Shown: one piece after another, positions 1,591-40,476 of the stretch | How positions within the stretch are numbered: position 1 is the first letter of the stretch | Layout: every line of letters starts with the position of its first letter | From: Microbacterium sp. GCS4 | GTDB lineage: Bacteria; Actinomycetota; Actinomycetes; Actinomycetales; Microbacteriaceae | DNA: 64,000 nucleotides | Assembly (NCBI RefSeq): GCF_001262495.1 | Contig: NZ_LGYE01000003.1 | Location: 310,001-374,000 of the forward strand | Direction: 5' to 3' | Notes under the pieces: model-generated | Databases searched by the model: none | What the model saw: the letters and a program-made list of their open reading frames with translations, nothing else | What the model was told of the DNA's origin: nothing | Program-made: the position numbers and the translations under genes

Positions 1591-3078
1591 GTGATCCCGA
1601 AATCCACCTCTGCGACCGCGCGCCTGCGACGGCTCGGTCGCACCGTCGGCGCGATGGCGCTCACGGCGTTCGTCGCCGCGGGCGCCCTGCTCGGCGGCGC
1701 CACCGCCGCGACCGCCGACACCACCGGCGAGACCTACGTCATCGGCACCGACACGACGTTCGCGCCGTTCGAGTTCACCGATCCGAACGGCGACCTCGTC
1801 GGCATCGACATGGACCTGCTCCGCGCGATCGCGAAGGATCAGGGCTTCGACGTCGAGATCCGCCAGCTCGGGTTCGACGCCGCCGTACAGGCCCTGCAGG
1901 CCAACCAGGTCGACGCGGTCATGGCCGGCATGTCGATCACGGACGAGCGCAAGCAGGTCTTCGACTTCAGCGACCCGTACTTCACCAGCGGCATCCAGCT
2001 CGGTGTGCTCGACTCCAGTGACATCGAGTCGCTCGACGACCTCGACGGCAAGACCGTCGCCGTCAAGACCGGCACCCAGGGCCAGACCTTCGCCGAGGAC
2101 AACCAGGACGAGTACGGCTTCCGCGTCACGCCCTACTCCGACACGACCGACATGGTCGACGCGGTCAAGGCCGGTCAGGCCGTCGGCTACTTCGAGGACT
2201 TCCCGGTGCTCGCCTACGGCATCCAGCAGGGATCGGGCTTCCGTCTCGTGGGCGAGCCGGAGCTCGGCGGCGAATACGGCTTCGCGGTCAACAAGGGGAT
2301 GAACCCCGAGCTGATCGAGATGTTCAACGCCGGGCTCAAGAACCTGCAGGACTCGGGGGAGTACGACGAGATCGTCGACACCTACCTGTCGGCCGGCGAC
2401 GGCGAGGGCGGATCCACGCAGGCCACCGACATCTTCTCCGTGGCCGTGAAGTACTGGCCGGCGCTCATGGAGGGCCTGTGGCTCACGATCCTCGCGACGC
2501 TCGTCGCGATCGTCGCCGCGTTCATCCTCGGCCTCGTGTTCGGCTTCGGACGCATCTCGCGCATCGCCCCGTTCCGCTGGATCGCCACCGCCTACGTGTT
2601 CGTGTTCCGCGGCACACCGATCCTCGTGCAGGCCTTCTTCGTGTTCTTCGCCATCCCGCAGCTGTTCCCCGGGCTGACGTTCAACCCGTTCGTCGCCGGT
2701 GCGATCACGCTGTCGCTCAACACCGGTGCGTACATGACCGAGATCATCCGCGGCGGCATCCAGGCCGTCGATCCCGGTCAGAACGAGGCCTCGCGCTCAC
2801 TCGGCCTGGGACACTGGAAGACGATGCGCAAGGTCGTGCTGCCGCAGGCGTTCCGCATCATGATCCCGTCGTTCGTGAACCAGGGCATCATCACCCTCAA
2901 GGACACGTCGCTGATCAGCGTCATCGGCCTCGCCGAGCTCACCTTCGTGTCGCGTCAGATCATCGCGTCGACGTACCTGTCGGCGCAGGTACTGACGATC
3001 GTCGCCATCATCTACTTCGTCGTGATCACGCTGCTCACGCTGCTGGCCAACCGCCTGGAGAGGAAGTTCAACGCATGA
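1591..3078 (+). CDS. Polar amino acid ABC transporter, fused substrate-binding protein and permease
   Basis: One 495-residue polypeptide carries both an extracellular solute-binding domain and the membrane permease of a PAAT-type amino acid importer. Residues 1-43 form a signal sequence. Residues about 48-265 are a family 3 binding protein (TTFAPFEF and [10 protein letters not shown] segments). Residues about 285-495 are a HisM/GlnP-type permease with the EAA loop ([20 protein letters not shown]). These parts are usually separate genes, though fusions are known in Gram-positives. GTG start with GAGGAG upstream. The stop overlaps the start of the ATPase gene by four bases (ATGA). Confidence 0.93.
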
Positions 3079-3803
3079 GCAAGATCGAGGTCAAGGACCT
3101 GCACAAGTCGTTCGGCGACAACCAGGTGCTCAAGGGCATCGACCTCACGGTCGAGGACGGCGAGGTCATCGCGGTCATCGGGCCGTCGGGCTCGGGCAAG
3201 TCGACCCTGCTGCGCTGCCTGAACAAGCTCGAGGAGCCCACGTCGGGCCACGTCGTGATCGACGGCGTCGACCTCACCGACAAGAGCGTCAAGCTCGACG
3301 GCGTGCGCCAGCGAATCGGGATGGTGTTCCAGCACTTCAACCTGTTCCCGCACATGACCGTGCTCGAGAACATCACGCTCGCGCCCGTCGAGACCGGCAA
3401 GATGTCGAAGGCCGAGGCGCGCGAACGTGCGCTGGCGCTGCTCGACCGGGTGGGTCTCGCCGAGAAGGCCGACGCGAAGCCGGCATCCCTCTCGGGCGGT
3501 CAGAAGCAGCGCGTGGCGATCGCCCGCGCGCTCGCGATGGACCCCGAGATCATGTTGTTCGACGAGGCCACGAGCGCACTCGACCCTGAGATGGTCGGCG
3601 AGGTGCTGCAGGTCATCCGCGACCTCGCCTCCGGCGGCATGACGATGGTGCTCGTGACGCATGAGATGGGCTTCGCGCGGGAGGTCTCCGGCCGCACGGT
3701 GTTCATGGACGGCGGCGTCGTCGTCGAGTCCGCGCCGCCGGCCGAGCTCTTCGGGTCGCCCAAGAACGAGCGTCTGAAGGACTTCCTCTCGAAGGTGCTC
3801 TGA
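3075..3803 (+). CDS. Amino acid ABC transporter ATP-binding protein (GlnQ/HisP type)
   Basis: A 242-residue ATPase that powers the fused binding protein/permease encoded just upstream. Walker A (GPSGSGKST), the LSGGQKQR signature, Walker B ([14 protein letters not shown]) and the switch histidine (VTHEMGF) are all intact. Length and motif set match the polar amino acid uptake family. The start overlaps the preceding stop by four bases, so the two are probably translated together. Substrate likely a polar or charged amino acid; which one is not visible. Confidence 0.95.
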
Positions 3804-3827
3804 GGGTCCCCGCGCGCCCGTCTCAAG

Positions 3828-3897
3828 ACCGTCTGTTTCTGCCGTATGGCAGAAACAGACGGTCTGTTCGCGTCATACGGCAGAAATAGACGGGCGG
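3828..3897. repeat. Palindromic intergenic repeat family B, copy 1
   Basis: A perfect hairpin with 16-base arms (ACCGTCTGTTTCTGCC and its complement) around a GTAT loop at 3828-3863 is followed by a second half, CATACGGCAGAAATAGACGG, to about 3890. It lies between two convergent genes and may serve as a bidirectional terminator. A near copy in the same orientation is at 5758-5825. Confidence 0.85.
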
Positions 3898-3898
3898 G

Positions 3899-5209
3899 TC
3901 AGAGGGTCTCGACCGGGGAAGGATGCCGGCGGATCGTGGCGCTCACGACGGCGGCGACCGCGCACAGCCCGGCGGCCGCGAACCACGCGATCGTGTACTG
4001 GCCGGTGTGGTCGCGCACGATCCCGGCGAGCACCGAGGCGATCCCGGCGCCGACCTGGTGCGCCGCGAACACCCACCCGAACACGAGCGGTCCGCGGTCG
4101 CCGAACACCTCGCGGCACAGGGCGATCGTCGGCGGCACGGTGGCCACCCAGTCGAGCCCGTAGATCACGATGAACACGACGATGCTCGGCTGCACCTCGG
4201 CCGACAGCAGGCTCGGCAAGAACAGCAGACTCACCCCGCGGAGGGCGTAGTAGGCGGCGAGCAGGATGCGAGGGTTCACGCGGTCGGTGAGCCAGCCCGA
4301 GAACACCGTGCCGGCGATGTCGAAGATCCCGACGACGGCGAGGAGCCCCGCGGCAGTGGTCGTCGGCATCCCGTGGTCGTGCGCGCTGGGGATGAAGTGC
4401 GTGCCGATCAGGCCGTTCGTCGTGGCGCCGCAGATCGCGAAGCCGATCGCCAGCGCCCAGAAGGTCTTCGTGCGGGCCGCGTCGCGCAACGTCGTGAGGG
4501 CGAGGCGCGCAGCGCCCCAGGCGTTGCCGCGCGGACGCGGTGCGGGCGGAGCGGTCGGGGCCGCCTCTCCGAAGCGCCCGACGCCGAGGTCGCTCGGTCG
4601 GTTGCGGAGGAAGATCCACACGAGTGGCACGACCGCGAGAGCGCCGCCGGCGATGATGAGGGATGCTCCGCGCCAGCCGATCTGCTCGGCGGACGCCGCG
4701 ATCACGGGGAGGAAGATCAGCTGCCCAGTGGCGCTGCCGGCGGTGAGCACACCGGAGACCAGGCCACGCCGCGTCGCGAACCACGTGTCGGTGATGGTCG
4801 CTGCGAAGACCAGGGCCATCGATCCGGTGCCGAGGCCGATCAGCACGCCCCACGTGAGGATGAGCTGCGCCGGTGTCGCGACGAACACGCTGAGTGCCGA
4901 GCCCGCGCCGATCACGAACAGCGCGGTCACGGTCACCGCACGGATGCCGAAGCGCTGCATGAGCGCGGCGGCGAACGGGGCGGTGAGCCCGAACAGCAGC
5001 AGGTTGACCGTGACGGCGAGGGAGAGCTCGGCGGTGGTCCAGCCGAACTCGTCCTGCAGCGGGAGCATGAGAACACCCGGCGCGGCACGGAACCCGGCGG
5101 CGCCGATCAGGGCGATGAGCGCGACGAGCGCGACGATCCACGCCGGGTGCAGGCGGCGCGGTCGGGGTGTCGGAGTGCCGGTCGGCTCCTCGACGGACTC
5201 GGCGGTCAT
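3899..5209 (-). CDS. MFS transporter
   Basis: A 436-residue major facilitator with about 12 predicted helices. An N-terminal Arg/Pro tail precedes TM1. Loops with Arg/Asp signatures, such as GWLTDRVNPR after helix 7, are visible. The protein resembles actinobacterial oxalate/formate- or monocarboxylate-type MFS carriers and exporters; substrate unknown. ATG at 5209 is chosen because it overlaps the stop of the upstream HxlR gene (ATGA, 5206-5209), so the two are probably translationally coupled. Expression is expected to follow the HxlR operator at 5698. Confidence 0.88.
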   Translation of the reverse strand: MTAESVEEPTGTPTPRPRRLHPAWIVALVALIALIGAAGFRAAPGVLMLPLQDEFGWTTAELSLAVTVNLLLFGLTAPFAAALMQRFGIRAVTVTALFVIGAGSALSVFVATPAQLILTWGVLIGLGTGSMALVFAATITDTWFATRRGLVSGVLTAGSATGQLIFLPVIAASAEQIGWRGASLIIAGGALAVVPLVWIFLRNRPSDLGVGRFGEAAPTAPPAPRPRGNAWGAARLALTTLRDAARTKTFWALAIGFAICGATTNGLIGTHFIPSAHDHGMPTTTAAGLLAVVGIFDIAGTVFSGWLTDRVNPRILLAAYYALRGVSLLFLPSLLSAEVQPSIVVFIVIYGLDWVATVPPTIALCREVFGDRGPLVFGWVFAAHQVGAGIASVLAGIVRDHTGQYTIAWFAAAGLCAVAAVVSATIRRHPSPVETL

Positions 5210-5691
5210 TCGGATGCTCCCGGCGCCCGCGTCTCGCCGGAGACGAGGGCGAAGGGCTCGCCGCCCATGCTCCGCCGCGCCCACAGCGTCGAGTCGGTGT
5301 CGAGTGGGGCATCGCAGTGCGTGCACCAGTCGGCGGATGCGGCGGCCTCGCCGCATCGCGCGCAGGACACCGTGAGCCCCCAGGGGCCGTCGGGGTCGGT
5401 CACGCGGGAGAAGCGCGCGAAGGCGTGCAGGACCGGAAGCGTCTCGCGTCCGGCATCCGTGAGGGCGTAGCCGCGCTCCTCACTGCGAGCGATCAGGGCG
5501 GCGTCGGTCATGGCGGTGAGGCGTCGGGACAGCACGGAGTCGGCCGCGCCGGTGGCGTCGCGCAGCTCGTCGAAGCGCGTGCGGCCGGAGAACAGCTCGC
5601 GCAGGATCAGCAGGACCCAGGGATCGGCGAGGACGTCGGCGGAGCGGGCGATCGGACACGTGGCTGTCGACCAGTCGGAGCGGAGCGGCAT
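5206..5691 (-). CDS. HxlR family transcriptional regulator with C-terminal zinc-ribbon-like tail
   Basis: A 161-residue winged-helix regulator. The N-terminus has the HxlR hallmark, a cysteine followed by PIARSADVLADPWVLLILREL (Cys12), which in the family senses thiol-reactive or aldehyde stress. The HTH and wing lie at residues 25-85. The C-terminal part adds two CxxC pairs (Cys110/113 and Cys123/126) spaced like a zinc ribbon, which minimal HxlR proteins lack. It is first in an operon with the MFS gene. The start is supported by a -35 TTGACA at 5726-5721, 17 bases before GAAAGT, which ends 6 bases before the ATG. Confidence 0.9.
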   Translation of the reverse strand: MPLRSDWSTATCPIARSADVLADPWVLLILRELFSGRTRFDELRDATGAADSVLSRRLTAMTDAALIARSEERGYALTDAGRETLPVLHAFARFSRVTDPDGPWGLTVSCARCGEAAASADWCTHCDAPLDTDSTLWARRSMGGEPFALVSGETRAPGASE

Positions 5692-5697
5692 CCACCC

Positions 5698-5714
5698 ACT
5701 TTCTTGAAGAAAGT
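5698..5714. promoter_or_regulatory. Predicted HxlR operator (perfect 17-bp palindrome)
   Basis: ACTTTCTTGAAGAAAGT is a perfect inverted repeat around one central base. It covers the -10 region of the hxlR-MFS promoter (TTGACA at 5721-5726, minus strand) and lies 6 bases from the start codon. HxlR proteins usually bind such palindromes next to their own gene, so autoregulation is likely. Confidence 0.8.
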
Positions 5715-5757
5715 GCGCGGTGTCAAGTGCCGATGCTCACGCGCGACCCACCCGCCT

Positions 5758-5825
5758 CTCTGTTTCTGCCGAACGGCAGAAACAGAGGGTCCATTCGTGC
5801 CGAACGGCAGAAATAGACGGGCGGG
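5758..5825. repeat. Palindromic intergenic repeat family B, copy 2
   Basis: Arms CTCTGTTTCTGCC and their complement around GAAC, then a second half with CGGCAGAAATAGACGGGCGG, closely matching the copy at 3828. The two copies bracket the hxlR-MFS operon in the same orientation. Confidence 0.85.
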
Positions 5826-5877
5826 CGGACGCGCGGACGGGAGGGCGGGCGGACGGGAGGCCCGGGCGGGAGGGCGG
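5817..5877. repeat. G-rich short tandem tract downstream of purD
   Basis: The plus strand has a run of GGGCGGACG/GGGAGGGCGG-like units with strong G over C bias and many runs of three Gs, ending two bases before the purD stop codon. It could form a G-quadruplex or help end purD transcription; no function can be read from it. Confidence 0.6.
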
Positions 5878-5878
5878 A

Positions 5879-7156
5879 CTACTCCGCGACGCGCGCGGCG
5901 ATGTCGCTGCGGTGGTGCGAGCCCTCGAGGCGGATACGGCCGATGGCCTCATACGCACGGTCGCGCGCGGTGCGGAAGTCGGATGCCGTCGCCACGACGT
6001 TCAGCACGCGCCCTCCGGTCGCGACGAGCGACCCGCCGGGAGCGTCGGGGCTGGCGGTCGCGGCGTGCACGAGGCGCACACCCTCGACCTGGGCCGCCTC
6101 GGCCAGACCCTCGATCGGGCGGCCGGTCTGCGGAGCCTCGGGATAGCCCTCGCTCGCGAGGACGACCGTGATCGCGACGTCGTCGGAGAACTTCGGCTCC
6201 GGCTGGTCCTCGAGGGTGCCGGATGCTGCGGCGAGCAGCAGCTTCGACAGCGGCGTCACGAGACGGGGCAGCACGACCTGCGTCTCGGGGTCGCCGAAGC
6301 GGGCGTTGAACTCGATCACGCGCACGCCGGCGGGCGTGAGGATGAGCCCGGCGTAGAGCAGGCCGATGAACGGGGTGCCCTCGCCGTCGAGCTGCCGGAT
6401 CACGGGGAGGGCGACATCGCGCGTGACCTCCTCGACGAACGCCTGCTCGCTGCCGAACTGCTCGGCGAGCCAGGGGAGGGGGGAGTATGCGCCCATGCCG
6501 CCGGTGTTGGGACCCTCGTCGCCGTCGAGCGCGCGCTTGAAGTCCTGCGCGGGGCTCAGCGCGCGCACCGTGTCGCCGTCGCTGAGGAAGAACAGCGAGA
6601 CCTCCGGTCCCGAGAGGAACTCCTCGATCAGCACAGGGCCCGACGGGAGGTACTGCTCCGCGTGCGCGAGGGCCTCGGCACGATCCGAGGTCACGATGAC
6701 GCCCTTGCCGGCGGCCAGGCCGTCGGCCTTCACGACGTGCGGGGCGCCGAGCTCGTCGAACGCGGCCTCGACCTCGGCGGTCGTCGTGGCGCGCACCGCG
6801 CGCCCGGTCGGCACGGAGGCTGCATCCATGATCCGCTTCGCGAACGACTTCGATCCCTCGAGCTGCGCGGCGGCCCTACCCGGGCCGAACACCGGGATGC
6901 CGCGCTCACGCAGCACGTCCGCGACACCCGCGACGAGCGGGGCCTCGGGGCCGACTACGACGAGATCGATCGCGTTGTCGTTCGCGAACGCCGTGATGGC
7001 GGCGCCGTCGAGCGGGTCGACCGAGACGGGCGTCGCGTCCTGCGCGATGCCCGCATTGCCCGGTGCCACGAAGACCTCGTGCTCCGTCTGCTCGGCCCGC
7101 AGGGCGAGGATGATCGCGTGCTCACGGGCACCGGAACCGAGGACGAGGATCTTCAC
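5879..7156 (-). CDS. purD: Phosphoribosylamine-glycine ligase (GARS)
   Basis: Second step of de novo purine synthesis: joins glycine to phosphoribosylamine with ATP to give GAR. The 425-residue length is typical. The N-terminus MKILVLGSGAREHAI is diagnostic, and the ATP-grasp core follows (VVKADGLAAGKGV; NTGGMGAYSP; EFNARFGDPETQ). Start is the GTG at 7156: TAGGCT ends 6 bases upstream, and the 18 bases over this promoter and start are identical to those at purM, suggesting shared control of leaderless transcripts. Confidence 0.97.
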   Translation of the reverse strand: MKILVLGSGAREHAIILALRAEQTEHEVFVAPGNAGIAQDATPVSVDPLDGAAITAFANDNAIDLVVVGPEAPLVAGVADVLRERGIPVFGPGRAAAQLEGSKSFAKRIMDAASVPTGRAVRATTTAEVEAAFDELGAPHVVKADGLAAGKGVIVTSDRAEALAHAEQYLPSGPVLIEEFLSGPEVSLFFLSDGDTVRALSPAQDFKRALDGDEGPNTGGMGAYSPLPWLAEQFGSEQAFVEEVTRDVALPVIRQLDGEGTPFIGLLYAGLILTPAGVRVIEFNARFGDPETQVVLPRLVTPLSKLLLAAASGTLEDQPEPKFSDDVAITVVLASEGYPEAPQTGRPIEGLAEAAQVEGVRLVHAATASPDAPGGSLVATGGRVLNVVATASDFRTARDRAYEAIGRIRLEGSHHRSDIAARVAE

Positions 7157-8412: not shown

Positions 8413-9201
8413 TCAGCGTCGAGCGACGACCAGAGGCACGCCCGTGACGGGATGCGGGAAGACATCGACGGCCTGACCGTAGACGGCCTCGATCCGCGCG
8501 GCTGTCAGGACTTCCGCGGGTGTGCCCGACGCGGCGACCCGACCGCGGTCGAGCAGGGTGACGCGGTCGGCGTGCGCGAGGGCCGCGTTCAGGTCGTGCA
8601 GCACGATCGCCACCGCGATGCCGGCGTCTGCCTGCGCGCGGATCAGTCGCATGACGTCCTCGTGGTGCTTGAGGTCGAGGGCCGCGGTGGGTTCGTCGAG
8701 CAGCAGGATGCCGGTGCTCTGCGCGAGCACGCGGGCCAGGGCGACCCGGGCGCGCTCTCCGCCCGACAGCGAGGTCACCGGGCGTGAGCCGAGCGGGAGC
8801 ACCTCGGTCGCGGCCATCGCCGCGGCGACGACCACGTCGTCCTCCGCGGACGCCTCGGTGCGCGCCCACGGCGCCCGTCCCATGCGCACGACCTGCTCGG
8901 CGCTGAACGGGAACGAGACGGCGTTCTCCTGCAGCAGCACGGCGCGTGCGCGGGCGAGGTCGGCTGCGCGGATGTCGTCGAGCGGCGTCCCGTCGAGCGC
9001 GACCTCTCCGGAAGCCGGGGCGATGTCGCCCGCCAGGACCCCGAACAGCGTGGACTTGCCGGCTCCGTTCGGGCCGACCAGGGCGTGGATCTCGCCGGCC
9101 CTGATCTCGATCGAGGCGTCGTCGAGGATCGCGCGGTCGCCGCCGAGGCGCACGGTGATGCCGGACGCACCCAGGCGCGCGGAGGCGTCGGCGGCGCTCA
9201 T
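8413..9201 (-). CDS. hmuV: Heme ABC transporter ATP-binding protein
   Basis: A 262-residue FecE/HmuV-type ATPase that energises import of heme (or another iron compound) through HmuU. Walker A GPNGAGKS, signature LSGGERARVALARVL and Walker B ILLLDEPTAALD are complete. ATG at 9201 is preferred because it overlaps the hmuU stop (ATGA); an in-frame ATG two codons upstream is possible. Last gene of an iron-regulated hmuTUV operon. Confidence 0.9.
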   Translation of the reverse strand: MSAADASARLGASGITVRLGGDRAILDDASIEIRAGEIHALVGPNGAGKSTLFGVLAGDIAPASGEVALDGTPLDDIRAADLARARAVLLQENAVSFPFSAEQVVRMGRAPWARTEASAEDDVVVAAAMAATEVLPLGSRPVTSLSGGERARVALARVLAQSTGILLLDEPTAALDLKHHEDVMRLIRAQADAGIAVAIVLHDLNAALAHADRVTLLDRGRVAASGTPAEVLTAARIEAVYGQAVDVFPHPVTGVPLVVARR

Positions 9202-10271
9202 GCCCATCCTCCCGAGCGGCGTCGCGTGCGAACGAGCAGCCACAGGAAGAACGGTCCGCCGACGAGCGAGGTGATCATGCCGATGGGGAGGTCGGCGAGC
9301 GGCACGGCCGTGCGGGCGACGAGGTCGGCCAGCGCGATGAGCAGCGCACCGCCGAGCGCTGAGGAGATCATGAGCGGCAGGTGCGCCGGTCCGATCAGCA
9401 TGCGCATGAGGTGCGGCACGACGAGTCCGGCGAAGCCGATGATGCCTGCGAACGCCACCGCGGCGCAGACGAGGATCGCGACCGTGACGATCACGACCAT
9501 GCGCAGCGCCTCGACGCGGACTCCGAGGTGTCGTGCGGTGCGCTCGCCGAGGGCGAAGAGGTCGAGCTCCGGGGACACGATCAGCGCCACGACCACGCCG
9601 ATAGCGACGAGCGGAGCGACGAGCGCGGAATGCGACCAGAGCGCGCCGTTGAGGGATCCGAGCTGCCAGAACACGATCTGCTCACGCGTCGACGTCGTGC
9701 CGAGGAACGTGAGGAACGCCATGCCGGCGCCGGCGATCGCGTTGATCGCGATGCCGGTGAGCAGCAGCGTCACGACCTCGGTGCGCCCGCCCGACCGGCT
9801 GATGAAGTACACCGCGAGCACGGCGGCGAGTCCGCCGAGGAAGGCGAAGGCCGGGGTCGTCCACATGCCGAAGGATGCGAGGCCGAGGGTGATGCTCGCT
9901 GCCGCGCCGAGCGCCGCGCCGGAGGAGACGCCGACGACTCCGGCATCCGCTAGCGGGTTGCCGAAGATCGCCTGCATGAGCACGCCCGAGACGGCGAGGG
10001 CCGCGCCGACGAGCAGTCCCAGGACGAGGCGCGGGAGGCGGAGGGTGTAGATGACGCCGTAGTCGGTCGTGGCGGCCGGGGCCCAGGCCGAGTCGATGCC
10101 GACGCCCTTGAGCAGCACGCCGATGAGGTCGGTGGGTGACAGCGTGTACTGGCCGCTCGTGATCGACAGGACGGCCGTCGCGACGAGCGCGGTGACCAGC
10201 CCGGCGACGACGAGGGTGAAGCGCAGCGTCCGATGGCCCGCGGGAGTGCGGGTGACGACCTCGCCGCTCAC
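9198..10271 (-). CDS. hmuU: Heme ABC transporter permease (FecCD family)
   Basis: A 357-residue inner-membrane permease with about nine to ten helices, of the BtuC/FecCD/HmuU type. Family segments are visible: LPRLVLGLLVGAALAVSGVLMQAIFGNPLADAGVVGVSSGA and, near the C-terminus, GIIGFAGLVVPHLMR. It overlaps both hmuT (10268-10271) and hmuV (9198-9201) by ATGA, so the three proteins are made in step. Heme as substrate is inferred from the adjacent HtaA-type gene. Confidence 0.92.
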   Translation of the reverse strand: MSGEVVTRTPAGHRTLRFTLVVAGLVTALVATAVLSITSGQYTLSPTDLIGVLLKGVGIDSAWAPAATTDYGVIYTLRLPRLVLGLLVGAALAVSGVLMQAIFGNPLADAGVVGVSSGAALGAAASITLGLASFGMWTTPAFAFLGGLAAVLAVYFISRSGGRTEVVTLLLTGIAINAIAGAGMAFLTFLGTTSTREQIVFWQLGSLNGALWSHSALVAPLVAIGVVVALIVSPELDLFALGERTARHLGVRVEALRMVVIVTVAILVCAAVAFAGIIGFAGLVVPHLMRMLIGPAHLPLMISSALGGALLIALADLVARTAVPLADLPIGMITSLVGGPFFLWLLVRTRRRSGGWA

Positions 10272-11392
10272 TTCGCGGGCTCGGCTGCGGCGGCCTCGGG
10301 CGCGTACAGGGCGCGGGCGATCGCGCCGATCAACTCGGCGGAGCGGGGCCCGAAGCTGAGAATCTCGCTGTCGGCCATGTCGATCACGCGACGGTTCGCG
10401 CCCGCGGGGGTCTCGGCGATCGCCGGGATGCGCTCGATCAGCCCGTCGATGCCGCCGACCGAATCGAGCCCGTCGGTCATCATGACGAGCACATCGGGCT
10501 GCGCGGCGACGAGCGCCTCGGCGGTCATGGGCTTCATGCCCTCCCAGCCGATCTCGCCCGCGACGTCGACGCCGCCGACCGCGTCGATCAGGGAGTCGGC
10601 TCCGGAGTCCTCTCCGAAGATGTAGTACACGTTGGCGCTGCCGCGGACGTAGAGGAACAGCATCCGCGCGCGGTCCTCGGCATCGGCCGGCACGACGGCG
10701 GCGATCTCCGCGAGCGACGCCTCGAGGTCGGCATCCAGTCGTTCGATGAGGGCTTCCCCGCGCGAGGGCACGCCCAGGGCACTGGCGATCTCGGTGACCA
10801 GCTCGTCGGTCGTGTCGAGGCGGCGGTCGCTCGAGATCACGACGACGGCGATGCCGGCATCGCGCAGCTGCTGCCGCACCTCCTTGGGGCCGATCGTCGT
10901 GTCGGTGAGGATCACGGTGGGGGCGAGTTCGAGGATCGCCTCGGCGTTGAGCGTGTGGCCGGACTTCGTGACGACGGGCAGGTCCTCGGTGCCGACGAAC
11001 TGGGTGGATGAGTCACGGCCGACGACCCGATCGCCGAGTCCGAGCGCGAACACGGTCGACGCGATCGTGCCCGAGATGTCGATGGGGAGGATGCGGTCGA
11101 CGTCCGTGACCTCGACCTCGCGGCCTTCGCTGTCGGTCAGTGTGACGGGCAGGTCGGGGGCGGTGTCGTCGCTCACGGGCTCGATCGCGTGGCTCGACAG
11201 GCAGGCCGTGGAACCACCGGTCGCGGCGCGGACGTCGTCGACCAGGTCGAGCGAGGCGAGGGGGACGGATGCCTGGGGGCACGCGTCCGGAGTCACGGCG
11301 TCCTGCGGTGCGGCGGTAGCGCCGGGGTCGGCGCACGCGGTGAGGCCGACGGCGAGAGCGGCAGCGAGCAGGAGGGCGGGGACTCGACGCAT
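10268..11392 (-). CDS. hmuT: Heme ABC transporter substrate-binding lipoprotein
   Basis: A 374-residue lipoprotein with signal sequence and lipobox LTAC, so it is anchored outside the membrane. The mature part has two Rossmann-like lobes of the periplasmic-binding family for heme and siderophores (VDRILPIDISGTIAS; TKSGHTLNAEAILELAPTVILT; IGWEGMKPM). It hands ligand to HmuU. The ATG at 11392 lies 6 bases after TAGCCT, and the iron box covers both, implying a leaderless iron-repressed transcript. Confidence 0.92.
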   Translation of the reverse strand: MRRVPALLLAAALAVGLTACADPGATAAPQDAVTPDACPQASVPLASLDLVDDVRAATGGSTACLSSHAIEPVSDDTAPDLPVTLTDSEGREVEVTDVDRILPIDISGTIASTVFALGLGDRVVGRDSSTQFVGTEDLPVVTKSGHTLNAEAILELAPTVILTDTTIGPKEVRQQLRDAGIAVVVISSDRRLDTTDELVTEIASALGVPSRGEALIERLDADLEASLAEIAAVVPADAEDRARMLFLYVRGSANVYYIFGEDSGADSLIDAVGGVDVAGEIGWEGMKPMTAEALVAAQPDVLVMMTDGLDSVGGIDGLIERIPAIAETPAGANRRVIDMADSEILSFGPRSAELIGAIARALYAPEAAAAEPAK

Positions 11393-36080: not shown

Positions 36081-36119
36081 TTCTTCTCCTGTGGGTGGTG
36101 GGGCCGTGTTGAGACGGAT

Positions 36120-36161
36120 CACGATATATCGTGTGTGAGAAGCGTAACACGATATATCTCG
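36120..36161. promoter_or_regulatory. Two predicted PadR operators
   Basis: A perfect palindrome CACGATATATCGTG (36120-36133) and a partial copy CACGATATATCTCG (36148-36161), 28 bases apart. A consensus -35 TTGACA lies on the minus strand at 36171-36166, so the second copy falls in the promoter spacer. ATATAT-centred sites are typical of PadR proteins. Confidence 0.85.
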
Positions 36162-36167
36162 AAAGTG

Positions 36168-36734
36168 TCAAGACTGTGATCGCGCCTTCTCGTCGGTCGG
36201 CGGGATCCCGGTGATGGATCGCTCGCACCCGATCCACCGATGCCACGACCGGGCGCCCGCGATCGCGGCGCGCCCGTCCGCGAAGATCGGGACCAGGAAG
36301 AGCCCGTGCGCGAGGAACCACGCGTGCAAGAGGAGGTCCGGGCACGCGAGCAGGAGCAGGAGACCGACTGCGACGCATCCGCCCGGACCCGCGGCAGCCG
36401 CGACGAACATGTCGCGACCTCGGATGCGACCGCGCGCCGACACCGAGATCCGCCAAAGCGTGCGCTCGAGCGTGAGCGTCGTCACCCCCGGCGAGCGTCG
36501 GAGCGCGATCGCGTGACCGAGCTCATGGAGCACGAAGGAAGCGCAGAGTCCGCACGAGTAGTGGACAGCGAGCAGGATCGTGCCGACGAGAAGGGCCGGC
36601 TGCGCCGTGACGACGCCGAGCACGCCGGCCGCGGTGGCGGTGGACGCGAAGACGATGTGCAGCGGCCATCCCGCCAGCAATAACCAACGGCTCAGCGTGC
36701 GGACGTCAAAGGAGTCGATGGCCCGCGTCCACAC
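36168..36734 (-). CDS. M50-like intramembrane metalloprotease of the peptide/ABC operon
   Basis: A 188-residue membrane protein with about four helices. HELGH at residues 70-74 in a hydrophobic helix gives two zinc ligands and the catalytic Glu. A later DG (Asp153 in VPIFADGRA) is placed like the third ligand of site-2 proteases. It is shorter than SpoIVFB or RseP and has no PDZ domain. It is the last gene of the operon headed by an 80-residue single-helix protein, a layout like YydH in the yyd epipeptide locus. It probably cuts that peptide in or near the membrane (inference). GTG start, one base after the upstream stop. Confidence 0.75.
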   Translation of the reverse strand: MWTRAIDSFDVRTLSRWLLLAGWPLHIVFASTATAAGVLGVVTAQPALLVGTILLAVHYSCGLCASFVLHELGHAIALRRSPGVTTLTLERTLWRISVSARGRIRGRDMFVAAAAGPGGCVAVGLLLLLACPDLLLHAWFLAHGLFLVPIFADGRAAIAGARSWHRWIGCERSITGIPPTDEKARSQS

Positions 36735-36735
36735 G

Positions 36736-37050
36736 TCATTCCGCTTCGGCGAGGAGCTGCGCCCGGCGTTCGACCAGCATGTCGTACACGGCGAGCGTCG
36801 CGAGCAGCAGGAACGTCACGACGACGAAGGCGATCACGAGCGGTGCCGGATTCGCGAGTCCCACCTCCAGCCCTGTCGTGCCGTCCTCGCGCTGATCGAC
36901 GCTCACGAACAGCGAGTCGAAGAAGCCGAGTCGTCGGCCCTCAGTCGACCCCGACGAGAACATCAGCCACACCAGCGTGACGGTCACGATCCCCGCCACG
37001 GCGACGGCGGCCGCTACGACGCATCCGAGTGCTCTGAACATCCACTTCAT
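36736..37050 (-). CDS. Small two-helix membrane protein of the peptide/ABC operon
   Basis: A 104-residue protein with a helix at residues 8-32, an extracytoplasmic loop of about 35 residues (EGRRLGFFDSLFVSVDQRED...) and a second helix at 70-90, ending in a charged tail. No family recognised. ATG at 37050 has AAAGGAC upstream and is well supported, yet it lies 110 bases inside the end of the permease frame. It may be an immunity protein, an accessory of the transporter or a second peptide. Confidence 0.75.
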   Translation of the reverse strand: MKWMFRALGCVVAAAVAVAGIVTVTLVWLMFSSGSTEGRRLGFFDSLFVSVDQREDGTTGLEVGLANPAPLVIAFVVVTFLLLATLAVYDMLVERRAQLLAEAE

Positions 37051-38455
37051 GACGTTCCGTCCTTTCGATCTTCTGCATTCCGAGGAGCGAGAGCCCCACT
37101 GCCGCAGCGCTGATGACGAGGAGCGAGACGACGCTCACTCCGGTGGGGAGACCGAGGAGATCGGTCCCGAGGAGAAGGGTGCCGGTGACGATGCCTGTCG
37201 TCACGATGCCGACGATGACGGAGAACGGATTGCCCTTCTCCGGCGGGAAGGCGATGCCGGCGAGGGTCAGCACGACGATGTTCGACAGTGCGAAGCCGAC
37301 CACGGCGAGGATCGTGACCACGTCGATCCCGGTGAGGGCCGACATCACGCCGATCGGCACGGCGCACAGGACCAGCGCGGTCGCCTGCGGCGCGACGATG
37401 AGCAGATAGCGCACGAGCAGGCCGTGCCGCCGCGGCCCGATCGCGCGGAGCGGAGCCGTGGAGACGTGGGCGTACACCGCGGACACCGTGCAGGCCACGA
37501 GCAGGAACGGCGGCAACTCGATGTCGAGGAGCAGGAGAGCGTAGGACCCGCCCAGCACGAGGCCGTACACCGTCATGGTCTCGATCGGGCGGAGGTGCGC
37601 GGCGACGTAGGCGCCGAACTCGGAGCTCCCGAACAGGCGGGGAGCGATCGCGAATCTCCGGGTCGGCTCGAAGCTGCGCGGGTTCACGACAAGGATCAGC
37701 GCGACGAGCACGGCGACGATCGCGAGCCAGGCGACGGTCGCGACGACCGGTCCGAGCGTCTCGGCGAGATCGGCGAAGAGCAACTGGACCGCGAAGTGCT
37801 CGGGGCCGCGGTCGACCGCCGCGAACAGCACGCGCTCGGACTGGGCGGTGGTCACGACGGACAGGGCGATCAGGGAGCCCGCGAGGATCACCGGGACGAG
37901 GAATGACCGCAGCCGCGCGAGCCGCAGGCGCAGGAGTCCGCGCTCGAGCGCCAGGTAGAGAGCGCTCGCGAGGAGGTAGGAGATCACGGACGGCATGACG
38001 AGACACGTGACGATGTCGTCGAGAATCCCGATCCCGCCGATCGACAGGGCGCCGACGACGAGCGCTCCGAGGATCACGGCGGTCCCCGCGCCGACGAGCG
38101 CCGCTTCGAACAGCATGAACCCGATCGTGCGCGCGCGATTGGTCACGGGGAGGCAGTAGGTGAGTTCGACGAGGTCGTTCGACCGCAGGAACAGGACGCG
38201 GACGACCGTGAACAGCGCGAGGGTCCACATCGGCACGGCGGTGCCGGCCACGCGCAGCAGCGGGCGGAGCAGCTCGGGGTCGGTGATGATGCTCCGCAGC
38301 GTCACCACCCCGAACGTCAGCGCGCCGCCGAGGGCGATCACGACGACCGCCACGAGCAGCGCGCGGATCGCGGGCACTCGGAGAACCCCGTGCCGGAGAA
38401 CCCTGCGGACCAGGAAGGTGCCGAGGAATCCGGCCAAGGTCAGCGCGGGAGTCAT
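36941..38455 (-). CDS. ABC-2 type transporter permease of the peptide/ABC operon
   Basis: A 504-residue, about 12-helix membrane protein, long for a bacteriocin-type permease, partnered with the ATPase upstream (ATGA overlap at 38452-38455). Hydrophobic segments run from residue 1 to about 466. The last 37 residues (HEVDVQSTRMRRSGRRRRGG...) are Arg-rich and encoded where the next gene starts, so the natural end may be earlier or a frameshift may be present. Likely exports or extracts a peptide or lipid. Confidence 0.8.
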   Translation of the reverse strand: MTPALTLAGFLGTFLVRRVLRHGVLRVPAIRALLVAVVVIALGGALTFGVVTLRSIITDPELLRPLLRVAGTAVPMWTLALFTVVRVLFLRSNDLVELTYCLPVTNRARTIGFMLFEAALVGAGTAVILGALVVGALSIGGIGILDDIVTCLVMPSVISYLLASALYLALERGLLRLRLARLRSFLVPVILAGSLIALSVVTTAQSERVLFAAVDRGPEHFAVQLLFADLAETLGPVVATVAWLAIVAVLVALILVVNPRSFEPTRRFAIAPRLFGSSEFGAYVAAHLRPIETMTVYGLVLGGSYALLLLDIELPPFLLVACTVSAVYAHVSTAPLRAIGPRRHGLLVRYLLIVAPQATALVLCAVPIGVMSALTGIDVVTILAVVGFALSNIVVLTLAGIAFPPEKGNPFSVIVGIVTTGIVTGTLLLGTDLLGLPTGVSVVSLLVISAAAVGLSLLGMQKIERTERHEVDVQSTRMRRSGRRRRGGDRDRHAGVADVLVGVD

Positions 38456-39174
38456 GACGTCGGAGAGGATGCCGGACTGCGCGTGGCCTCTGCGACGAGG
38501 GCATCGAGAGACCCATACCGAGCGAACACCTCGTCAGTGGAGAGATCGTGGCGGACGGTGCCGTCGACCAGGAGGATCACTCGGTCGCAGACGGCCTCGA
38601 TGAGACGCAGGTCGTGGCTGCAGAAGACGAGTGCGCGGTCCGCGCCCAGGCGACGGGCGTCGGCGGTGAACGCGCGCACTGCATCGGCGTCGACGCCGTT
38701 GAGCGTCTCGTCGATGATCGTGAGGGGCCGCTCGACGAGAAGGCTCGCGATGACCTGCACCTTCTTGCGCATGCCGTGGGAGTAGTCCTCGATGAGGTCG
38801 CCCTCGCGGCCCGCCATGTCGTAGCGGCGGAAGAGGTCGGCTGCCTTCGCCGCGTCGGTCTCCTGACCGTAGAGGCGGTGCATCAGATCGACGTACTCCT
38901 GTCCGGTGAGGAACTGCGGGAGGGTGTCGTTGCTCGCCGAGTAGGCGAGATCCCGACGGGAGGCCCGGTCGCGGTGCGGGCGTCCCTGCATGCTGATCCG
39001 GCCGCTGCGAAGCTGCAGCAGATCGGCGAGAAGGCGGATGAGGGTCGACTTCCCGGAACCGTTCGGTCCGACGAGGCCCACACGCTCGCCTCGGTTCACG
39101 GCGAAGGACACGTCCCGCAGGACGGGCCGGGACTTCACATAGGAGAATCCGACGGACGAGACGTCCAGCAGCAT
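38452..39174 (-). CDS. ABC transporter ATP-binding protein of the peptide/ABC operon
   Basis: A 240-residue ATPase: Walker A GPNGSGKST, a changed signature YSHGMRKKV in place of LSGGQ, Walker B LTIIDETLNGVD and a switch His in CSHDLR. This signature (YSxGMxxK) is typical of ABC-2 exporters for bacteriocins and antibiotics. Start at 39174 uses AAAGGTGCCGAG upstream. It lies 65 bases after the small peptide gene. Confidence 0.9.
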   Translation of the reverse strand: MLLDVSSVGFSYVKSRPVLRDVSFAVNRGERVGLVGPNGSGKSTLIRLLADLLQLRSGRISMQGRPHRDRASRRDLAYSASNDTLPQFLTGQEYVDLMHRLYGQETDAAKAADLFRRYDMAGREGDLIEDYSHGMRKKVQVIASLLVERPLTIIDETLNGVDADAVRAFTADARRLGADRALVFCSHDLRLIEAVCDRVILLVDGTVRHDLSTDEVFARYGSLDALVAEATRSPASSPTS

Positions 39175-39239
39175 CTCGGCACCTTTCTTCTGGGTGTCCC
39201 TCGGCGCACCGTCGGTGACGCCGAGGGAACGGGGTGGTG

Positions 39240-39482
39240 TCACACGCACTCGATCGACACGGAGACGCCCTTCTTGCTCCACTTCCAGTTGCCGGTGAAC
39301 TTCCTGCCTCCGTTGGAGAAGAAGCACCAGAGCGCGAGGGCTGCGAGGAACGCCACCCCGAACACGAGGATCGCTGCGATCAGCACCAGCCACCAGGCGT
39401 CGACGCGGACGATCACGTCGTCGACGGCGTCCTGGACGCGTCGGCGCATCAGTGTGGGCTCGATCATCGACATCACGGACAT
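39240..39482 (-). CDS. Small single-helix protein, candidate peptide precursor heading the ABC/M50 operon
   Basis: An 80-residue protein of no family I recognise. Residues 1-29 are soluble and charged (VQDAVDDVIVRVD), 30-54 form one strongly hydrophobic helix, and 55-80 are a cationic, Trp-containing tail: SNGGRKFTGNWKWSKKG, then VSVSIECV with Cys79 next to the end. GGGGG lies 4 bases before the chosen ATG; two more in-frame ATGs follow within six codons. As the first gene before an ABC exporter and an M50-like protease, it could be the precursor of a secreted peptide released by cutting near the helix (the GG at 58-59 is a possible site). Not a standard bacteriocin; no modification enzyme is nearby. 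Confidence 0.7.
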   Translation of the reverse strand: MSVMSMIEPTLMRRRVQDAVDDVIVRVDAWWLVLIAAILVFGVAFLAALALWCFFSNGGRKFTGNWKWSKKGVSVSIECV

Positions 39483-39687: not shown

Positions 39688-40476
39688 ATGACCGGTCGGG
39701 ACTGGTCGATCCAGGAGATCGCCCGCCTCGCGGGAACCACCAGCAGGACGCTGCGTCACTACGACGACATCGGCCTGCTGCCGCCGACGCGAATCGCGCA
39801 CAACGGATACCGGCACTACGACCAGGCGGCGCTCGTGCAGCTGCAGCGGATCCTGCTCCTGAGAGAACTCGGACTCGGACTGCCGCAGGTGGCCGACGTG
39901 TTGCGAGCCGCTCCACAGGGCCAGGCCGAGGCCGCAGCCCTGGAGACGCACCTCGCGCTGCTGCGCGAAGAGCAGGACAGACTGGCGCGTCAGATCGCGT
40001 CGGTCCAGAGCACCATCACGGCACTGAGAGGAGGTGAAGAGCTCATGGCAGAGAACATGTTCGACGGCTTCGACCACACGCAGTACAAGGACGAGGTCGA
40101 GCAGCGCTGGGGCCGCACGGCCTACGCCGACGGCGACGGCTGGTGGCGGGGGATGACGGATGCCGAGCGCGCCGACTGGCAGCAGTGCGTGGCCGACCTC
40201 GGTCGCGACTGGATCAGGGCGGCGGAGAGCGGCATCGACCCGGCATCCGCGGACGCCCAGGACATCGCACGTCGCCACGTCGAGTGGGTGACGGGCGTGC
40301 CCGGCACCCCGGCATCCGTGCCCGGTGGCGACGTGAAGGCGTACGTGATCGGTCTCGGCGAGATGTACGTCGCCGATCCGCGCTTCGGCGCGAACTACGC
40401 GACGTCGTCCGGCGGGACCCACGGCGCCGAGTTCGTCCGTGACGCGCTCCGCGTCTATGCGGACGCGTACCTGTAG
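39688..40476 (+). CDS. MerR family regulator with TipAS drug-sensing domain
   Basis: A 262-residue protein. MerR winged helix at residues 4-75 (SIQEIARLAGTTSRTLRHYDDIGLLPPTR), coiled-coil dimer helix about 80-118, then a TipAS domain (about 130-255: FDHTQYKDEVEQRWGRTAYADGDGWW; GLGEMYVADPRFGANYA). TipAL proteins bind thiopeptide-like antibiotics and activate efflux or binding responses. ATG at 39688 is set by GGAAGGAG. Divergent from the peptide/ABC operon, which it might control. Confidence 0.93.
   Translation: MTGRDWSIQEIARLAGTTSRTLRHYDDIGLLPPTRIAHNGYRHYDQAALVQLQRILLLRELGLGLPQVADVLRAAPQGQAEAAALETHLALLREEQDRLARQIASVQSTITALRGGEELMAENMFDGFDHTQYKDEVEQRWGRTAYADGDGWWRGMTDAERADWQQCVADLGRDWIRAAESGIDPASADAQDIARRHVEWVTGVPGTPASVPGGDVKAYVIGLGEMYVADPRFGANYATSSGGTHGAEFVRDALRVYADAYL

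Follow-up and report, generated by a model that had tools for sequence, protein, structure and literature searches.

Background

TMcins are a class of antimicrobial peptides in which a single transmembrane helix is combined with a two-stranded beta loop that a disulfide closes (PMC12328743, 2025). This report concerns five genes at positions 36168–39482, minus strand, of a 64,000 nt stretch from the 3.65 Mb genome of Microbacterium sp. GCS4 (contig NZ_LGYE01000003.1, positions 310,001–374,000); this whole stretch is termed the window. The five genes very probably form a TMcin biosynthetic operon. By analogy with the described TMcins, the product is most likely a small membrane-spanning peptide that would be exported and would pierce competing bacteria.

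Statements on published TMcins follow the discovery paper (PMC12328743) and a later preprint (PMC13252029, 2026). The core operon consists of tmcA, tmcB, tmcC, tmcE and tmcP (both papers), and the type member is TMcin-G1905 from Staphylococcus aureus plasmid pCT545 (PMC12328743). Mutants show that TmcP, a protease of the site-2 clan with an HExxH motif and a distal Asp, removes the TmcA leader and that TmcE is required for that step; export is by TmcBC, and the disulfide is required for killing (PMC13252029). In the model for the class TmcE is the escort of TmcA; TmcP is without the last two site-2 helices and has TmcE in their place (PMC13252029). The mature TMcin-G1905 peptide has Cys residues at C25 and C50 and retains the whole transmembrane helix (PMC13252029). 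TMcins form large, stable beta-barrel pores and kill Gram-positive bacteria (PMC12328743; PMC13252029). Homologues are found in Bacillota and Actinomycetota in three gene arrangements (PMC12328743), and tmcD is missing outside staphylococci (PMC13252029). TmcP is reported as a member of PF11667. According to its discoverers, the class was overlooked by genome mining (PMC12328743).

Gene content of the operon

The window locus has five open, co-directional reading frames in tight succession in the order A-B-C-E-P, and the gene set matches the published TMcin core operon one-to-one. An annotation made from the sequence alone, referred to here as the original prediction, had listed five minus-strand genes in this order with HELGH and YSHGM motifs, and all the reading frames are open and in the stated order. 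The features are as follows.

39240..39482, minus strand: tmcA homologue, single-helix precursor of 80 amino acids (aa), based on the open reading frame, conservation in two phyla and AlphaFold2
38452..39174, minus strand: tmcB homologue, ABC transporter ATPase, 240 aa, YSHGM present, Pfam ABC_tran E 5.2e-25
36941..38455, minus strand: tmcC homologue, polytopic permease, 504 aa, with homologues at profiled loci
36736..37050, minus strand: tmcE homologue, 104 aa, two hydrophobic stretches, profile homologues in 24/30 loci
36168..36734, minus strand: tmcP homologue, site-2-type intramembrane metalloprotease, 188 aa, GTG start
36513..36527, minus strand: HELGH zinc motif of tmcP, residues 70–74, with H70, E71 and H74 invariant
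36276..36278, minus strand: distal Asp153 codon of tmcP, invariant; a metal ligand in site-2 proteases
39243..39398, minus strand: predicted mature peptide, residues 29–80, 52 aa, placed by TMcin-G1905 numbering (PMC13252029)
39324..39326, minus strand: invariant Cys53 codon at the outer end of the helix, 12/12 rows
39246..39248, minus strand: invariant Cys79 codon at the end of the hairpin, 12/12 rows

The locus and TMcin-G1905 share the five kinds of gene (single-helix precursor, ATPase, polytopic permease, two-helix protein and site-2 protease), the helix with a disulfide-type hairpin, the flanking Trp residues and the invariant protease residues. The two-helix count for the TmcE homologue is read from its hydrophobic stretches, not from a topology program. 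Unlike TMcin-G1905, which is on plasmid pCT545, the window operon is chromosomal and is without a regulatory pair. Every defining feature of TMcins that was checked is present, PF11667 membership of the protease aside, for which the window protein gave no match at E ≤ 1 and one homologue a match below the cut-off. The operon is a new example of a published bacteriocin class and not a new kind of system. The original prediction had termed it uncharacterised and the best candidate for a new system, and here it is superseded by the publication of the family as TMcins in August 2025 (PMC12328743). The operon was picked from raw sequence, although the class escaped genome mining by the discoverers' own account.

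The original prediction had also likened the gene set to the yydF and skf systems. The Bacillus subtilis epipeptide operon yydFGHIJ encodes a small precursor, an M50-type protease and an ABC exporter, and needs a radical SAM epimerase. The first three are likewise present in one operon in the window, and this common logic, which stands, would agree with membership in the epipeptide or SKF group with the modifying enzyme encoded elsewhere. Family membership is, however, highly improbable. Family searches of the five proteins reveal no radical SAM enzyme in the operon, as the original prediction had said, and the nearest match in the genome (60694–61089, minus strand, a 745-aa open frame) is about 21 kb away, with none closer. 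The TMcin match accounts for each gene without such an enzyme.

The precursor peptide

The predicted leader of the window TmcA comprises residues 1–28 and is followed by a transmembrane helix at approximately 30–52. The AlphaFold2 model (mean pLDDT 71.2, pTM 0.42) shows a helix at positions 8–56 and then a two-stranded antiparallel hairpin with strands at 62–69 and 72–79, the arrangement that defines TMcins. Positions W30, W52, C53, F62, G64, W66, S74 and C79 are invariant in 12/12 TmcA rows from two phyla. The helix is thus flanked by two invariant Trp residues (W30, W52) and the hairpin enclosed by two invariant Cys residues (C53, C79), both characteristic of TMcins; the original prediction did not mention the Cys pair. 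In all the peptides measured, the first Cys comes 23 residues after the first helix Trp. The Cys-Cys spacing is 26 in Microbacterium, compared to 25 in TMcin-G1905 and 24–25 elsewhere.

Leader cleavage in the window TmcA is most likely between D28 and A29. This position is taken from TMcin-G1905, where the first Cys is residue 25, so that counting back 24 residues from C53 gives A29 as the start. The predicted mature peptide, residues 29–80, has 52 aa and a monoisotopic mass of 5757.07 Da with one disulfide; the corresponding masses for a start at residue 28 or 30 are 5872.10 and 5686.03 Da. The original prediction had placed the product in the tail, from about residue 58; this is probably wrong because mature TMcin-G1905 keeps its whole transmembrane helix. 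Its description of the peptide as unmodified is also inexact, in that a leader is removed from published TMcins and a disulfide is present in them. The Microbacterium peptides are natural variants on which the pore model can draw, and they offer a predicted mass to search for.

The protease and the escort

The HExxH motif, Pro149 and Asp153 are invariant in 12/12 protease rows, and the window protein thus has the HExxH motif and distal Asp of a site-2 clan protease. Asp153 is the probable counterpart of TmcP Asp158 (PMC13252029), judged by its position after the Pro. A profile of the protease compared with PDB sequences gives a single match, the site-2 protease 3b4r (E 7.5e-5). The structure model (pLDDT 90.9) also has 3b4r as its best structural match, with a Foldseek E of 0.013 and probability of 1.00. 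The VIA comparison with 3b4r gives a Z of 9.9 and a root-mean-square deviation of 3.7 over 154 residues; the tool itself cautions that helical bundles can often reach Z values of up to about 13. The top six VIA rows are all site-2 proteases (3b4r, then SpoIVFB and RseP) with Z values of 9.9–6.4, and the next, unrelated row has a Z of 5.0. The window protein has the same fold and active-site residues as the 3b4r protease (mjS2P), SpoIVFB and RseP, but it is shorter. Its best Pfam hint is Peptidase_M50 with an E of 0.25, which is not significant.

The TmcE homologue in a staphylococcal plasmid cluster (pHOB2, described below) is found with an E of 2.7e-23. The suggestion, made by eye, that TmcE mimics the peptide hairpin was rejected on a profile-profile probability of 1%; the same type of comparison between the protease and TmcE gives 1.5%.

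Proposed mechanism

The sequence of steps and the cleavage site are here modeled on TMcin-G1905, as are the disulfide, the role of TmcE as escort, the export of the peptide, the formation of pores and the killing of target cells. TmcA would be inserted in the producer membrane with the leader inside and the C-terminal hairpin outside, and a thiol oxidase encoded elsewhere would close the C53–C79 disulfide. TmcP, helped by TmcE, would then cut TmcA at the helix's inner edge, with D28/A29 as the most likely site, and TmcBC would pull the 52-residue peptide from the membrane and export it. At target Gram-positive cells the peptides would insert by their helices and assemble beta-barrel pores.

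There is no oxidoreductase gene in the operon. The genome has five Thioredoxin_4 (DsbA-type) matches, all outside the window, and any of these proteins may close the TmcA disulfide. Thioredoxin-family genes are present in or beside four homologous clusters from outside the staphylococci (L027 8282–8665, L028 1597–3030, L034 11681–12091 and L035 9113–10621; locus numbers are those of this analysis), whereas the preprint reports that tmcD is missing there (PMC13252029). In locus L047, positions 5909–6549, the precursor gene is present in two tandem, nearly identical copies.

The original prediction had put forward a second reading, that the genes protect the cell itself against a membrane-derived peptide. 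In the form considered here, they would be a module for self-protection or stress that acts against a membrane peptide of foreign origin, and the protease would cleave the small protein, which would be a decoy or sensor. Microbacterium has no known activity, which leaves room for such a role. Mutants of the TMcin system show, however, that these genes are responsible for making a killing peptide and for exporting it (PMC13252029), and tandem small genes and thioredoxin partners fit a product better than a sensor. A self-protection module is therefore most improbable, and biosynthesis of a TMcin is the preferred reading.

Conservation and distribution

The ATPase is matched in 10/198 genomes of the genus at E ≤ 1e-30. 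Nine of these, the window included, have all five genes in the same order (8/8 other members examined), which places a complete operon of the TMcin type in Microbacterium. The tenth genome, G061, has a 35%-identical ATPase paralogue and is without the small gene. The original prediction had proposed conservation of the gene set as a check, and had named two outcomes that would speak against it, absence of the small gene in relatives that keep the other four genes and lack of a conserved tail. Neither is observed. The small gene is present in 9/9 genus genomes with the operon, and the tail motif F-[TS]-G-x-W-x-[WF] with the final Cys is found in 12/12 rows from two phyla.

Identity of the tmcA product to the window sequence is 69–79% in the eight relatives, compared to 61–73% for the ATPase and 47–56% for the protease. 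The ratio of nonsynonymous to synonymous substitution rates (dN/dS) was determined for four pairs per gene, with tmcC left out. It is 0.16–0.27 for the small gene, 0.19–0.40 for the ATPase gene, 0.37–0.58 for the two-helix gene and 0.35–0.51 for the protease gene, and dN of the small gene is the lowest of the four genes in 4/4 pairs. Judged from these sequence comparisons, the small gene is under purifying selection.

When 398 genomes of the family were scanned with a profile of the small protein, two matched, both from the same genus; among 394 genomes of the class there were four matches, of which two are from this genus. Among Bacilli 8/299 match, two of them among loci already counted, and the one match in 291 Clostridia is to a genome already counted. 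A scan of named genomes gives ten loci: five from Microbacterium and others from Enterococcus villorum, a Lachnospiraceae metagenome-assembled genome, Paenisporosarcina, Pseudoscardovia suis and Pseudarthrobacter. Plasmid records with the small gene are from Roseburia, Peribacillus, Staphylococcus epidermidis and, in three cases, Paraclostridium bifermentans.

The complete five-gene set is found in 24/30 profiled small-gene loci from Actinomycetota and Bacillota, which bears out the grouping of the small gene, as a precursor, with a protease and an ABC pair that the original prediction had made. The ATPase is found at 30/30. Such recurrence of the set, in the genus and beyond it, is no coincidence. 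In the full-set loci the genes are arranged as A-B-C-E-P, as B-C-E-P-A or in split forms. The seeds of the profiles were the window genes plus genes of L027 and L029 chosen by position, and because of this seeding L027 and L029 count as homologues partly by synteny. Outside the 30 are L024 and L025 (located on the contigs of L015 and L014), L019 (a paralogue), the short loci L001–L010, L020, L021, L037–L046, L065 and L066 (duplicates or the G061 paralogue) and two more Paraclostridium plasmids (H7, H9).

The distribution and conservation also bear on the possibility that the peptide released by this machinery serves as a signal or kin factor, the chromosomal actinobacterial branch having kept the biosynthesis and lost the antimicrobial role. 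The peptide is unusually conserved in the genus for a weapon, and in the members of the genus examined the operon is always at a single chromosomal site, both of which agree with a signal. On the other hand, the patchy distribution in the genus and the copies on Bacillota plasmids fit a competition trait, and the hairpin and both pore-forming Cys residues of TMcin-G1905 are retained. A signal is considered unlikely, and an antimicrobial TMcin is the reading retained here.

Direct results of the present comparisons are the make-up and conservation of the gene set, the fold predicted for the peptide, and the fold and active site of the protease. Several observations weigh against the assignment to the TMcins. 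Membership is judged from the gene set and features against the published description of TMcin-G1905, and function is known for the staphylococcal homologues only. The window leader is approximately 28 aa, compared to 45 aa in TMcin-G1905, the operon is without tmcD and the peptide model is only moderately confident. The window protease has no PF11667 (DUF3267) match at E ≤ 1, and the L027 and L033 proteases have none at E ≤ 0.1; among the proteases checked L052 alone matches the family, with an E of 0.0016 that is below the cut-off. A TmcE match is absent at 6/30 loci (L034, L036 and L049–L052). L036 is also without a protease match, and L049 and L051 are without a permease match (E ≤ 0.01). 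The tmcC gene is in two frames in L016 and L047, and in the L011 pair dN/dS of tmcB (0.19) is slightly less than that of tmcA (0.21).

The split tmcC of L016, at 9190–10607 in one member of the genus, represents a decayed copy or a sequencing error. A literature search on Microbacterium and TMcins returned only the discovery paper (PMC12328743), where the genus name is absent from the main text and may be listed in figures or supplements (Fig. 3 tree).

A PqqD-bearing branch and plasmid pHOB2

Five of the six loci without a TmcE match have an N-terminal PqqD-like (RRE-type, i.e., recognition element) domain on the protease. It is above the curated cut-off in L034 (E 1.2e-13), L049 (2.4e-7), L050 (2.8e-6) and L052 (1.3e-5); the E of 7.3e-4 in L051 is below it. 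The PqqD-bearing TmcP-like proteases are located as follows.

L034, 10514–11404
L049, 4809–5795
L050, 10441–11403
L051, 4829–5713
L052, 4847–5839

We tentatively suggest, as a possibility that is somewhat doubtful, that there are two TMcin machineries: an escort type with a separate TmcE and a plain protease, and a type where TmcE is missing or unrecognisable and the protease bears an RRE, which would replace the escort. Microbacterium would represent the chromosomal actinobacterial branch of the escort type.

Plasmid pHOB2 of S. epidermidis 14.1.R1 (NZ_CP018844.1, 9.3 kb, mobilizable) has all five TMcin genes at L033 716–3961 in the order B-C-E-P-A, with the precursor gene last, whereas it is first in the window. 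The pHOB2 small gene is 297 bp, like the 297-bp tmcA of the 9.4-kb pCT545 (PMC12328743). Strain 14.1.R1 inhibits Propionibacterium acnes by an activity described as heat-labile, protein-like, unidentified and seen on agar only (PMC4770681); the genome paper credits a type VII system for this inhibition (PMC5347227). The pHOB2 genes are a candidate source of this activity. In neither TMcin paper does the main text contain "PqqD", "recognition element" or "epidermidis", so that the PqqD-bearing branch and the pHOB2 cluster are not mentioned there by these terms (PMC12328743; PMC13252029).

Annotation of the operon proteins

The ATPase alone among the five proteins passes a Pfam cut-off. The products of tmcA, tmcC, tmcE and tmcP match no NCBIfam family above its cut-off, and the permease matches no family of Pfam or NCBIfam. 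Homology of the permease stops at about residue 467 (near 37055), and the residues beyond it are encoded where the reading frame runs over the next gene in a different frame. A reading as a defence system was rejected, as the PADLOC matches are limited to the ABC subunit, where they are of the generic ATPase kind, and the other four proteins have none. A phage origin was also considered; PHROGs match none of the five proteins, and phage records, searched with the L050 peptide only, gave no match. The IMG/VR contig L032, which is filed as viral, has a full A-B-C-E-P cluster at 2787–6092, and this is either cargo of a prophage or plasmid, or the contig is misfiled.

Flanking regions

The operon is flanked on one side by a MerR/TipAS gene and on the other by DUF4097-PadR, a gene pair. 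The merR gene adjoins the operon in 7/8 relatives, and DUF4097-PadR is on the other side in 8/8, in L014 and L015 after approximately 2.6 kb of other DNA. MerR/TipAS was considered as the operon's own regulator, but it is not a marker of the system because 155/198 genus genomes have a merR homologue (E ≤ 1e-40) and 9/198 have the operon. It may share a divergent promoter region with the operon.

DUF4097-PadR was rejected as part of the system on the basis of 12 genus loci with merR. In L062 DUF4097 is approximately 180 bp from merR with no operon between. The merR-DUF4097 gap is about 2.7 kb in L053–L056, L058 and L060, 3.9 kb in L064 and about 5 kb in L059; L057, L061 and L063 show no DUF4097 match in the 11 kb examined. 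The DNA of approximately 2.7 kb between the flanks is mutually alignable in six loci, and L014 and L015 have similar DNA after the operon. In L053 it reads as a putative glycogen-phosphorylase-like open reading frame. The flanks look like a variable site and not like parts of the system. At this site, which consists of merR, the operon, the phosphorylase-like gene and DUF4097-PadR (39691–40476 and the DNA beyond the operon), the middle parts come and go among members of the genus. Two copies of a ATATATCG-type palindrome are present at 36118–36162, upstream of DUF4097-PadR, and are also found in L062 without the operon. This palindrome is probably the PadR operator.

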